From Rhodohalobacter mucosus (lineage in GTDB: Bacteria; Bacteroidota; Rhodothermia; Balneolales; Balneolaceae), in assembly GCF_003150675.1 (NCBI RefSeq), contig NZ_QGGB01000005.1, positions 434,001 through 498,000 on the forward strand: 64,000 nt of DNA, given 5' to 3'. The position numbers and the translations under genes were made by a program. Position 1 is the stretch's first letter. Each line of letters begins with the position of its first letter. The notes under the pieces are model-generated. The model ran no database searches, was not told the DNA's origin, and worked only from the letters and a program-made list of their open reading frames with translations. Below, piece after piece: positions 42,885 to 50,176 of this stretch.

Positions 42885-43002
42885 AAGTTAAAGGTTTTTG
42901 ATGGTTGATTCATCAGCGTGTAGAAAGAGAACATTTAACATTTATTCTTCAAATTGTAATACCGAGTCCAAAAGATTAATAAATGAATCACTTGAATTAA
43001 GC

Positions 43003-43413
43003 ATGTCAACCGCGAAAAGGTTCGAAGATTTAGAGATATGGCAACTTGCGCGTGAGCTTGTAGCGATGATTTATGAAATTTCGAATAAGGCACTTTTTTC
43101 TAAGGACTACGGTTTGAAGGATCAAATCCGACGTTCCTCTGTTGGAGTGATGAATAACATAAGTGAAGGATTTGAAAGCCGTACAGTGAAGCTTTTTATC
43201 GATTATTTGGGAAGGTCCAAGGGATCCTGCGGTGAAACTCGTTCTGTGCTCTACGCAGCACTGGATCAGAACTATATCTCGAAAGCTGAATTCAATGATC
43301 TTCGTCAGAAATGTGAAAAAATTTCATCCAAAACATTGCGACTCATTCAGTATTTAGAAAAATATGAGTCGAATGATCGTGTACAGGAAGCCGGATTTGG
43401 GTATGATGTTTAA
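43003..43413 (+). CDS. Four-helix-bundle protein (S23/IVS type)
   Basis: The 136-residue protein begins RFEDLEIWQLARELV, followed by SKDYGLKDQIRRSSVGVMNNISEGFES and LGRSKGSCGETRSVLYAAL, the standard motifs of the S23 four-helix family. Members were first found in 23S rRNA intervening sequences and are related to the Avd accessory protein of diversity-generating retroelements. I chose the ATG at 43003; the longer open frame from 42898 has no family match. No rRNA or reverse transcriptase is nearby. The gene lies inside a repeat-flanked segment between greA and ugd and looks like an insertion. The function is unknown. Confidence 0.85.
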   Translation: MSTAKRFEDLEIWQLARELVAMIYEISNKALFSKDYGLKDQIRRSSVGVMNNISEGFESRTVKLFIDYLGRSKGSCGETRSVLYAALDQNYISKAEFNDLRQKCEKISSKTLRLIQYLEKYESNDRVQEAGFGYDV

Positions 43414-45905: not shown

Positions 45906-46361
45906 ATGATGAAGCGCCTGATTGATCTATATCCCTACCGCCTGACCGATCACGGCCCTGAATTTCTCTTGCTCAGGCGTGCAAAGGGAAAAATATACCA
46001 CGGCCAGTGGAGAATGGTTGGAGGAAAGGTAAAGTCCGGAGAAACGTCCTGGCAGGCAGCATTGAGGGAACTGATGGAGGAAACCGGCCTCGCGCCAAAA
46101 AGATTTTGGACGATCCCCTCGGTAAATACATTTTATGAGTACAAGACAGACACTGTTCATCACATTCCGGCGTTTGCAGCCGAACTGTTGCACTCTTCAG
46201 AGCCTGTTCTGGATGATGAGCACACTGCATGCAGCTGGTTTGATTCCGCTAAGGCTGTGGAAAATCTTCACTGGCCGGAACAAAAACGTCTTGTTGAGTT
46301 AACAGAATCCATTTTAATGCACGATCAAATCCTTGAAGAGTGGCTCGTACCCTTACGCTGA
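45906..46361 (+). CDS. NUDIX hydrolase
   Basis: The 151-residue protein has a complete NUDIX box, GGKVKSGETSWQAALRELMEETGL (G-x5-E-x7-REL-x-EE-x-GL). Homology begins at the double ATG at 45906/45909, 4 bases after the UXS stop; the open frame extends upstream without a match. Substrate is unknown. It overlaps the following barrel gene by 22 bases. Confidence 0.88.
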   Translation: MMKRLIDLYPYRLTDHGPEFLLLRRAKGKIYHGQWRMVGGKVKSGETSWQAALRELMEETGLAPKRFWTIPSVNTFYEYKTDTVHHIPAFAAELLHSSEPVLDDEHTACSWFDSAKAVENLHWPEQKRLVELTESILMHDQILEEWLVPLR

Positions 46362-47551
46362 TATCATTTATTACAGTTATTCTGGCTGCTTTGATCTGGC
46401 CTGCTGACGTGCGGGGTCAGAGTAAAAGCTATGAAATTCTTCCGGCTCCCGACCTTTGGTATAATGACGTGGACGGAATACGCGTGGGAGTCAGGCTTCT
46501 GGGACAGGTACCCGGAACGTTTGAAGACGGACCGCACAGACTGGATGCGGGCTTCTGGGTTGGAACCTGGTTTCCGGACCTTCCGGTTTCCTATTACATC
46601 TCGTACACAGAGCCTATACCGGCCTGGTCGGAATACGGCAGTGAGGCAAGTATACAGCTGATCAGTTCAATAAGAACGGGATATCATATACACGGCGCCG
46701 CCTTTAACAAGCGCTGGCAGCAGGGGTTTGATGAACGGCGCTACCGCGAGGTCAGGGTGCTGAATACGTTCGAAAAAAGATTTGACCTTGAGTACGCTGC
46801 CTTTCCCCGGTTGTGGGGTACGGAGAGCAAACTGCTCACCCACCTCAACCTGGAACTGCAGGATGACAATTCCCTGGGCTGGTATAGCCTGTCAGGATCG
46901 GCAGCAGTGCAATATCTAAATGAACTCTACCCGATCGCATCACTGGCAGCGATTCAGAACATTCCATTCAACGATTACTGGGGATTCCGGCTGAGGGGAT
47001 TTCTGGGTGCAGCCGGTTCGGATGCGGATCCTGAATATCTGTACTCCAGAAGCACACAGCCTTCGATTGAATCCATAGAATCGGGCATCACCCGAGCAAA
47101 AGGCACCATACCGCAGCCCTGGATAGAAAGCGGAAACTTTCATCTTGCCGGCGGACCCAATTTGAGAGGATATACGGGCCAGGATATTGAATCATTTACA
47201 GAAGCTGCAGGACCTGCACTCTACAAATCGTTTGTTTCGGTGAATGCAGAGTTTGACTATCCCAACCCAATTGGAATGCTTTTCAGGCGGATCCCCTATG
47301 TGTCAGAATTTACAAGCTTTGGATCCTACCTGTTTATGGATGCCGGAAGATCGCTGGAAAGCGACAATTCAACGCTTTTTGCAGATGCAGGAGCCGGATT
47401 TTCGCTGTCGCTGAATATTCCTGACTATCTGGGTAAACCACGCGGCTTTGTTCTGCGTTATGAACTACCATTCTGGCTGTCCGAACCGGGTATGCAGGAT
47501 GCTTTCAGGCTCAGGCACTTGTTTGGATTTGGAGCCATTTTTTCATTTTGA
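46340..47551 (+). CDS. Second Omp85-like outer-membrane barrel
   Basis: The 403-residue protein starts at a GTG, with a signal peptide ending near RGQS. The barrel has FHLAGGPNLRGYTGQDI, an Omp85-type L6 loop (RGY), and the last strand ends FGFGAIFSF with terminal Phe. No POTRA domains are present. It resembles the barrel at 26453 in general layout only. Overlap with NUDIX and the 22-base gap to the pseudo-caspase lipoprotein suggest one transcript. A role in envelope biogenesis or secretion is inferred. Confidence 0.7.
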   Translation: MARTLTLISFITVILAALIWPADVRGQSKSYEILPAPDLWYNDVDGIRVGVRLLGQVPGTFEDGPHRLDAGFWVGTWFPDLPVSYYISYTEPIPAWSEYGSEASIQLISSIRTGYHIHGAAFNKRWQQGFDERRYREVRVLNTFEKRFDLEYAAFPRLWGTESKLLTHLNLELQDDNSLGWYSLSGSAAVQYLNELYPIASLAAIQNIPFNDYWGFRLRGFLGAAGSDADPEYLYSRSTQPSIESIESGITRAKGTIPQPWIESGNFHLAGGPNLRGYTGQDIESFTEAAGPALYKSFVSVNAEFDYPNPIGMLFRRIPYVSEFTSFGSYLFMDAGRSLESDNSTLFADAGAGFSLSLNIPDYLGKPRGFVLRYELPFWLSEPGMQDAFRLRHLFGFGAIFSF

Positions 47552-47573: not shown

Positions 47574-49316
47574 ATGCGAGTCATTTTCTTACTTACCGGG
47601 TTCCTATTCCTGACCGCATCCTGTACGACCAGCCGCTGGGTTGTTACCGATGAGTTTGCGCTCGACAGCAGTGCAGAACCGGAAATCGTTGACCGTACAA
47701 ATATCCTCGTTCTGGAGAGAGAACCTACTCCGGAGAATCCTGTGCTGCTTTATACCCCGTATGAAGTTATTCAGGAGCAGTATCCTCTCAGGGTCGAAAT
47801 GGAACGAACCGTTCAAAAGTACAGGCCCAGATGGGGGTTTATGTTACTGGGCCTTGCAGGAACCCTTTTCGCCTTCGCGGCTGCCAATTCAAATACCATT
47901 CTGACTGATGTGAGCAGATCACAAAAAGTGATTCTTAATGTGACCGGGGGAGTTCTCGGGATACTTTCATTTGTAAATTTACAGCCATCCGGTGACCCCA
48001 TTTACACTGGCGAGTCGGAGCTGATGAGGCGCAGCGGTGTTGAAGTACTGGTCGACTCCACATCAATACCGGGTGTTGAATCGGGAGTTCTTGATGTTGT
48101 ATCCATAACATACCTCGACAGTGTTCTTTTCCGTGAAACCGACCTTGCATTGCCTGAAAACGGACTCGAAATTAATCTCGCATCGCTATCGGGAGATCTT
48201 GGCGACGAGATTCAGGGAGATTCACAGGTCAACGTGCTGATTGAGTATGGCGGCAGCGAATATGCTGAAAATGTGCGCGTAGATCAGTTTATGGCACCCT
48301 TCATTCGAATAACACAACCCGTTGCAACTCTCCATTCATCAGCTGAGGATTCAGAAATCAATGTGGTTTCAGAAGTTGGGCGTGACAGTCAAATGCAGAT
48401 CCTTGCTGAGGGTGAAGATGGCTGGTACAGGGTGAGATACGAAAATACGGAAGCGTATATCAGGGATGATGCGGGAGAACGAAAATGGATGGCGCTTTCC
48501 GGCAGTGAATCATCTCTCGTTTATGAGTTTGCGGAGATACCATTTGGCGGAATTGACGTTGAAAGCGGTGTTCCGGTATTGAAAGAGTCCAATCCGTCTG
48601 ATAAGGCACTTATCGTAACCAATGGAATAGGTAATCAGGCAGGAGCCCGGCAGTACCTGGGCCGCGATCATGATCTTTACAGGCACTACAGCAGAAATGC
48701 GTTCCAGGTTGAAGAGAGCGAGATTCATACATTCAGAGAAAGGGGAGGCGGCGAACTGCTTCGTTTGAGTGAAACGGCCGGTTCCATGTTCGACAGCGGG
48801 TCATTGTATATCTTTGTCACAGGTTTTGCGGATATACGCACAGGTGCTTCAGGCCGCGAGGTGGTAATGGTATATGAAGACCGTGCGGGCGAGGTGAGTG
48901 AGATTCCACTGCTGGAACTATTCAGCGAGATTGCAGACCTGTCGCCGGAAACCCTGTACCTGTTTATCGATCTTGATTACCTGACAGACCCGAATGGCAA
49001 TAGTTCGGAACGGGAGCTCATTTCACTGATCAGCGAGGCATCAGGTATGCTTCTGCGAATGCTTCCGAATTCAGCCATTGTGTTCAGCAACCGCCCGGGG
49101 CAGCAGTCAGGCCTGTATTCAGGTATGAATAGTGAAAATATGCGCCATCACATATTCGCCTACTACTGGGCAGAGGCCCTTCAGCAGAGAAAAACCAGAC
49201 TATCAGACCTGGTAAACCATCTTGACAGCAACGTGGACTACATGTCGAGAAGGCTGCACGACCGACCCCAGGAAATCCAGGCATACGGAAATCTTACCCT
49301 CCAAATCTCCGACTGA
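47574..49316 (+). CDS. Lipoprotein with SH3-like and degenerate caspase-like domains
   Basis: This 580-residue protein begins with a signal and lipobox (LTASC, Cys17). Two hydrophobic stretches lie at 88-104 and 118-134, and an SH3b-like domain at 246-305. A caspase-like (C14) domain follows: KALIVTNGIGNQAGARQYLG (344-363), IFVTGFADIR where GHG with the catalytic His is expected (413-422), and LFIDLDYL where the DAC with the catalytic Cys is expected (463-470). The C-terminal end (HHIFAYYWAEALQQ, then QEIQAYGNLTL) matches the fold. It therefore looks catalytically dead. Recognition of the fold is by motif order, so moderate confidence. Confidence 0.6.
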   Translation: MRVIFLLTGFLFLTASCTTSRWVVTDEFALDSSAEPEIVDRTNILVLEREPTPENPVLLYTPYEVIQEQYPLRVEMERTVQKYRPRWGFMLLGLAGTLFAFAAANSNTILTDVSRSQKVILNVTGGVLGILSFVNLQPSGDPIYTGESELMRRSGVEVLVDSTSIPGVESGVLDVVSITYLDSVLFRETDLALPENGLEINLASLSGDLGDEIQGDSQVNVLIEYGGSEYAENVRVDQFMAPFIRITQPVATLHSSAEDSEINVVSEVGRDSQMQILAEGEDGWYRVRYENTEAYIRDDAGERKWMALSGSESSLVYEFAEIPFGGIDVESGVPVLKESNPSDKALIVTNGIGNQAGARQYLGRDHDLYRHYSRNAFQVEESEIHTFRERGGGELLRLSETAGSMFDSGSLYIFVTGFADIRTGASGREVVMVYEDRAGEVSEIPLLELFSEIADLSPETLYLFIDLDYLTDPNGNSSERELISLISEASGMLLRMLPNSAIVFSNRPGQQSGLYSGMNSENMRHHIFAYYWAEALQQRKTRLSDLVNHLDSNVDYMSRRLHDRPQEIQAYGNLTLQISD

Positions 49317-50176
49317 TGAGTGGATGGATTTACATTCTGCTCAGTTCCTCCTTCTCGATTTTGATTGCGCACCTTCTGAAGGTTACAGAGTTCAGGAAAA
49401 TTCACACCGTAAAAGTTCTAACGGTGAACTATTTTGTGGCTACGGTTACAGCCTTCGCCACAACCGAATCTGCAATAATTCCTGATTTTGCTCAAAATGA
49501 CTCCCTTGCGGCCGTACTTCTTGGAGCGGTTACCGGGTTCATTTTTATAGCCAACTTTTTTATCTACAGCAAGTCCGTAAATCACAACGGTGTGGGAATC
49601 AGCGTTGCAGCGATGCGTATTTCACTGATTGTTCCCGTATTGCTTTCAACGCTATGGTATCTGGAGTATATCAGCGCGATTCAATGGGTTGGAGTGATGC
49701 TGGTTTTTGTAACTCTTTTTCTGCTTTTGCCCAATAAACGCAAACTGCTTCGTGAGCCTTTCAGCGCGGGATGGCTTCTTGTACTTCTGTTTATTGGGAC
49801 AGGCGTAGGTGACGCTGCGCTAAAAATATATGAATCGGACTTTTCCGATATCTGGGCAAAGCAGCAATTTATGGGAGTGGTATTTTTGACGGCTTTCTTA
49901 ATCGGTATGGGGGTGCTGATTCTGCGCAGGGACGTACGGTTCAACAGGCATGATTTATGGATGGGTGCAGCAGTTGGGATTCCAAATCTTTATACGTCGA
50001 TTTTCCTGATTGAAGCCCTTGAGAGGATGAATGGCGCGGTGGTGTACAGTGCAGTTAACGTGATAACCGTGTTGGGTGCAACACTTTTGGGTATTTTGAG
50101 GTGGGGCGACCGGCTGAAGCCGTTTCAGTGGGCCGGCATTGTGTTCACACTCATTTCAATTCTGTTGCTTATTTAA
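49316..50176 (+). CDS. EamA/DMT-family transporter
   Basis: The 286-residue membrane protein has about ten helices in two five-helix repeats, with the second repeat's AVVYSAVNVITVLGATLLGILRWGDRLKPFQWAGI being typical of the EamA domain. The start codon overlaps the stop of the lipoprotein gene by one base (TGATG), so they are translationally coupled. Drug/metabolite transporters of this type export amino acids or other small solutes. The substrate is unknown. Confidence 0.85.
   Translation: MSGWIYILLSSSFSILIAHLLKVTEFRKIHTVKVLTVNYFVATVTAFATTESAIIPDFAQNDSLAAVLLGAVTGFIFIANFFIYSKSVNHNGVGISVAAMRISLIVPVLLSTLWYLEYISAIQWVGVMLVFVTLFLLLPNKRKLLREPFSAGWLLVLLFIGTGVGDAALKIYESDFSDIWAKQQFMGVVFLTAFLIGMGVLILRRDVRFNRHDLWMGAAVGIPNLYTSIFLIEALERMNGAVVYSAVNVITVLGATLLGILRWGDRLKPFQWAGIVFTLISILLLI

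Follow-up and report, generated by a model that had tools for sequence, protein, structure and literature searches.

The C-terminal domain of a 580-residue protein of Rhodohalobacter mucosus is homologous to caspase and orthocaspase domains, and we are highly confident that it both descends from a caspase and has lost the protease function. Taken as a whole, the protein is probably best explained as an exported pseudo-orthocaspase, anchored to a membrane by lipid, that serves as a non-catalytic binder or scaffold. Its gene occupies positions 47574..49316 (+) of the analysed DNA, a stretch of 64,000 nucleotides (hereafter the window). The open reading frame starts with ATG, and its extent, strand and product length agree with an earlier sequence-only reading of the window, which had also proposed a lipoprotein carrying an SH3b-like domain and a caspase-like domain with both catalytic residues lost. 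The last of these proposals is supported by profile comparison, Pfam matches of orthologues, a structure search, residue mapping and relatives. Conservation is given below for the 84 full-length orthologues that remain from 94 distinct matches after removal of eight paralogues and two fragments. The alignment (A1) leaves out L031–L033, which are the same or nearly the same as L002–L004, and the fragments L048 and L050.

Domain build and caspase ancestry

The N-terminus carries a putative signal peptide (47574..47624, +) that ends at the lipobox-like Cys17. The lipobox claimed from the letters is borne out, as the hydrophobic N-terminus ends at this residue and the cysteine is aligned in all 84 orthologues. 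Hydrophobic 19-residue windows begin at residues 1–3 of the query, the residue after the cysteine is Thr or Ser in every orthologue, and a stricter lipobox pattern of our own is matched by 79 of them. With a signal peptide and a lipobox cysteine, the product is predicted to be a bacterial lipoprotein that would be cleaved and lipidated at Cys17. The N-terminal domain that follows (approximately residues 18–240; 47625..48293, +) contains the invariant residues W22, R78 and Q81; it matched no family in the profile scan, and the search with the full-length model gave nothing usable for this region. Within it lies a hydrophobic hairpin, a probable membrane contact (approximately residues 86–135; 47829..47978, +), with helices at 87–105 and 115–134 in the low-confidence full-length model. 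At the two segments the Kyte-Doolittle 17-residue maximum reaches at least 1.2, a threshold that we chose, in 74 and 75 of the orthologues, respectively. Such a hairpin would suit the inner or the outer membrane alike, and the outer-membrane placing given in the earlier reading is at most a candidate one.

The proposed SH3b-like domain (approximately residues 241–306; 48294..48491, +) is corroborated by PF08239 matches in orthologues and by a fold match. In the query itself PF08239 covers residues 263–296 at 18.2 bits, below the cut-off of 27; of 45 orthologues, 18 reach E ≤ 1 with this profile, the best at 6.4e-7. The full-length model, a weak one (mean pLDDT 56.4), matches the solved bacterial SH3-like domain 9ovi with E 0.019, probability 1.00 and a TM-score of 0.77 on the target. 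The structure search with this model gave no match at E ≤ 0.001, and metacaspases appear at ranks 21–22 among its best 50 matches.

The caspase-fold (p20-like) domain spans residues 320–580 (48531..49313, +). Direct Pfam (PF00656) and NCBIfam scans of the query alone return no caspase match, which is what would be expected if the order of its motifs had arisen by chance, with no relation to caspases. Among orthologues the picture differs: 12 of 45 match PF00656 at E ≤ 1 (best 2e-7), and when six were run singly, four passed the cut-off of 21.4 bits (46.4, 41.6, 39.7 and 25.6), one scored 19.6 and one gave no match. Matches above the cut-off come from orthologues of several genera; of the order's 116 genomes, 33 hold one, orthologues and intact relatives combined. 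The NCBIfam model NF047832 (caspase, EACC1-associated type) is likewise matched by 12 of 45 orthologues at E ≤ 0.01; run singly, one orthologue reaches 28 bits against a cut-off of 140, and two intact relatives also fall far below it.

The profile and structure comparisons suggested earlier both point to caspases. With hhalign, the family aligns to nine intact caspase proteins at a probability of 99.5% (E 2.3e-22) and to the intact relative L080 alone at 99.6% (E 9.9e-25), covering the whole domain, whereas the controls, the neighbouring barrel family against caspases and the pseudo-caspase family against the barrel, give 0.2% and 0.4%. As orthologues pass a curated cut-off and hhalign gives 99.5–99.6% compared with 0.2% for the neighbour family, the resemblance goes beyond chance. 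A Foldseek search with a model of the domain yielded 28 matches at E ≤ 0.001, of which 23 are metacaspases, caspases or MALT1; ranks 1–17 are caspases or metacaspases throughout, and the five remaining matches, with probabilities of approximately 0.4–0.5, are to aldolases or DUF1341. The clan CD matches at this threshold have query TM-scores of only 0.31–0.38, and the model is poor (mean pLDDT 53.4, pTM 0.61, built with four sequences). VIA-align 2, which re-aligns Foldseek's own matches only, names caspases, metacaspases, MALT1 or legumain in 49 of 50 rows, with the best score for metacaspase 4 (Z 10.7, rmsd 4.2, 172 aligned); the remaining row is the uncharacterised GSU0716, itself a weak match to a profile of intact caspases (E 0.0075). 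Against PDB sequences, the family profile gives five matches up to E 10, all on the SH3-like region (best E 0.24), and a single intact relative gives none at E ≤ 0.1; the alignment of nine intact relatives finds metacaspases and MALT1. Given the PF00656 matches in orthologues, the hhalign, Foldseek and VIA-align 2 results and the low control scores, a chance arrangement of motifs is extremely improbable.

Catalytic positions and the acidic pocket

All caspase-like motifs named in the earlier reading are present, with IFVTGFAD at residues 413–420, LFIDLDYL at 463–470, QEIQAYG at 566–572 and IVTNGIGNQ at 347–355, one lower than the 348–356 first given. The places guessed for the catalytic residues also proved right: in the hhalign alignment with L080, the His of SGHG falls on F418 (48825..48827, +) and the Cys of DACFSG on D468 (48975..48977, +). 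At position 418 the orthologues have Tyr in 45, Phe in 20, His in 9, Ser in 5 and other residues in 5. At position 468 they have Asp in 56, Glu in 16, Gln in 6, Ser in 3 and His, Phe and Met in one each, so an acid occupies this place in 72 of 84 and Cys in none. The commonest 418/468 pairs are Y/D (34), H/D (9), F/E (8) and F/D (8). The domain is free of any cysteine in 82 orthologues; in the remaining two, cysteines stand at columns 402 or 404 and 456, away from 468. The catalytic His and Cys of PF00656 peptidases are missing, so we do not file the protein as a protease. The combination of a p20 domain with a substituted dyad and both acidic pocket residues, found in the query, is that of a pseudo-orthocaspase.

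The pocket that accepts basic residues uses two aspartates, Asp95 and Asp211 in TbMCA2 and Asp365 and Asp462 in MALT1, according to the accessible part of PMC4357240. In profile alignments D365 (48666..48668, +) maps onto the first of each pair, on helix alpha1, and D466 (48969..48971, +) onto the second, which precedes the catalytic Cys. D466 is Asp in all 84 orthologues. D365 is Asp in 69, and 13 of the 15 exceptions have Thr or Ser, so the pocket is incompletely conserved. Retention of pocket acids has also been reported for cyanobacterial pseudo-orthocaspases in the portion of PMC6426788 available to us.

These patterns bear on whether the protein could still catalyse a reaction, by some new carboxylate chemistry centred on D466 and D468. 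The Cys place is not occupied at random, given its predominant acid, and D466, E330, R559 and Q566 are invariant. However, position 468 is Gln, Ser, His, Phe or Met in 12 of 84 orthologues, the His place varies over nine residue types, and all four invariant residues are identical in the intact relative L080, so they look structural or pocket-forming. We consider continued catalysis quite improbable.

Distribution, gene neighbourhood and evolution

A survey of relatives, also suggested earlier, covered 58 relatives, 145 genomes of the class and 296 genomes of the phylum. Orthologues are present in 47 of the 58 relatives (own genome counted), in four of the five families sampled in the order (f1 to f5), with one copy per genome wherever the gene occurs; it is missing from all nine genomes of family f4, from G027 (57% complete) and from G029, a member of the organism's own family. 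In the class, the profile matches 67 of 145 genomes, three of which (family f8) match weakly, with a best E of 1.9e-9 over part of the caspase region. In the phylum it matches 65 of 296 genomes, 27 of them outside the order and in the caspase part only, and the proteins from ten of these 27 (L083–L086 and L157–L164) keep both His and Cys throughout.

Caspase domains pair, and c-FLIP is known to act on caspase-8 as a dead partner. The pseudo-caspase could accordingly be imagined as a decoy or regulator that pairs with and modulates an active caspase of the same cell, and some genomes of the order do hold intact caspase relatives. However, a family-level search found no PF00656 match in the own genome, and across the order a match besides the orthologue turns up in no more than 10 of 116 genomes by our sorting. 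Such a role is quite improbable in this genome.

The genes on either side show recurrent order. Directly upstream in the window lies a predicted outer-membrane barrel (46340..47551, +), which had been called Omp85-like; this label was not confirmed, as a Pfam scan of 11 of its orthologues gave no match at E ≤ 0.1, and we treat it as an unclassified family. Downstream is an EamA transporter (49316..50176, +; PF00892, E 3e-12), whose one-base overlap with the pseudo-caspase gene is confirmed by the shared TGATG of stop and start. In 60 loci the upstream flank extends to 2.8 kb or more, and in 52 of these the barrel lies within 4.5 kb: directly upstream in 22, beyond an acetate kinase gene in 29 and elsewhere in one. 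It was not found in eight, of which at least L044 and L046 have it just beyond the fetched stretch. The intervening acetate-kinase-like gene, named by sequence, is seen for example in L034, L035, L036, L045, L049, L113 and L120, and is absent from the gap between barrel and pseudo-caspase in the window itself. Of 84 loci, 65 have at least 1.5 kb downstream, where EamA follows directly in 49 and a phosphotransacetylase lies within 2 kb in 53. Further upstream in the window, positions 42898–43413 encode a four-helix-bundle protein (TIGR02436) just before a gene that resembles UDP-glucose dehydrogenase by sequence.

The barrel family occurs across the order (52 of 58 relatives) and persists in genomes without the pseudo-caspase. 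Both genes are present in 42 of the 58 relatives, the pseudo-caspase alone in five, the barrel alone in ten and neither in one, some of the genomes being incomplete. The barrel is present in eight of the nine f4 genomes and in G029, all without a pseudo-caspase, so the latter gene is dispensable there and is not an obligate partner of the barrel; we rejected the barrel as an obligate partner on this ground. In both L155 and L156 the barrel and EamA genes adjoin each other, the pseudo-caspase apparently having been lost cleanly, and in L152, L153 and L154 the barrel is followed by other genes. We read the barrel linkage as conserved gene order rather than proof of a complex.

A tree was built from 78 orthologues, six near-copies having been excluded, together with 11 intact relatives. 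It unites the Cys-less sequences in a single group (SH-aLRT 91) and likewise the nine H/D sequences, all from family f3 (SH-aLRT 100). Loss of the Cys appears on it as one change; in the simplest account, a single loss of the Cys preceded that of the His. This is a quick tree with several long branches, and it does not settle the deep branching order of the families.

Close pairs show purifying selection on the caspase-like domain: dN/dS of residues 320–578 is approximately 0.03–0.17 in the seven closest (dS <1). In such pairs dN is similar for the N-terminal and the caspase regions, and W22, R78 and Q81 are as invariant as D466, both of which would fit a dead domain that only stabilizes the fold or dimerizes, its cleft without a ligand, and leaves the work to the hairpin and the SH3-like domain. 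Set against this, every one of the 84 orthologues retains D466 while the dyad has changed, and an acid prevails at position 468, so we regard a purely stabilizing domain as unlikely.

A possible role at the envelope and relation to known systems

With the cutting residues lost, the protein probably binds rather than cuts, and we hold it somewhat probable that it is a non-catalytic binder at the cell envelope. After export and lipidation of the N-terminal Cys, the hydrophobic hairpin could make a second membrane contact, and the SH3-like and dead caspase domains would project into the periplasm. There D466, usually together with D365, and the Asp or Glu found at the former Cys place in 72 of 84 orthologues would form an acidic cleft, which could bind a basic peptide or side chain and leave it uncut, and the SH3-like domain may hold a peptidoglycan stem peptide; in this role the protein would be an envelope receptor, tether or scaffold. 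That the ligand is a basic peptide is a tentative proposal on our part and rather doubtful. It is also no more than a speculative scenario that, early in the order, an exported caspase had its nucleophile exchanged for an acid and kept the old site as an acidic cleft, becoming a receptor at the envelope for a basic peptide or a divalent cation by way of a His/Asp stage still seen in one family.

Bacterial pseudo-orthocaspases are already known, as the accessible parts of PMC6426788 and PMC3501461 describe. The present family shares with them a p20-like domain, a replaced dyad and a largely retained acidic pocket, and Tyr, a common substitute for the His there, is the commonest residue here too (45 of 84). 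In those sources 90% of pseudo-orthocaspases come from Alphaproteobacteria and Cyanobacteria, pseudo-variants make up 10 of 1078 Bacteroidetes sequences, and the dyads named are YS, YA, FS, YN, YG, QC, HA and HG. Unlike these, the Cys place here holds Asp or Glu in 72 of 84 orthologues, within a build of lipoprotein, hydrophobic hairpin and SH3-like domain. The Synechocystis protein SyOC (PMC7889975) is likewise a dead bacterial orthocaspase, from another lineage, and its abstract mentions neither a lipoprotein nor an SH3 domain; its deletion is reported there to raise oxidative stress tolerance. Metacaspases and MALT1 (6w8r, 7qp0, 4afr and 9mkd) share the fold and counterparts of the two pocket acids, as far as PMC4357240 shows in the part available. 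They are active Arg/Lys-specific proteases, unlike the dyad-less query.

Closer relatives with an intact domain, L080 and L099 in the order and L157–L161 in the phylum, share the whole domain, beginning with the acidic lead-in and running to the C-terminal end, keep GHG and DACFSG and differ in their N-terminal parts. Some intact relatives carry an acidic loop such as ADLDNDGTIT, and the pattern D.D.DG occurs in none of the 84 orthologues. In L080 (2241–4832) the intact caspase domain sits in an 864-residue open frame together with a YCF48-like propeller and CARDB.

As far as the literature searched shows, and it was available to us in part, the lineage, its build (lipoprotein, hydrophobic hairpin, SH3-like domain and dead caspase) and the prevailing acid in place of the nucleophile are new; the search found no earlier description of any of them. 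The family adds a widespread dead-caspase lineage outside the groups in which such proteins are reported to be concentrated (PMC6426788, in the part consulted). Where caspase profiles match such proteins, the label 'caspase family protein' would mislead. The intermediate form, in which one family has lost the Cys and kept the His, makes the path from protease to binder traceable.
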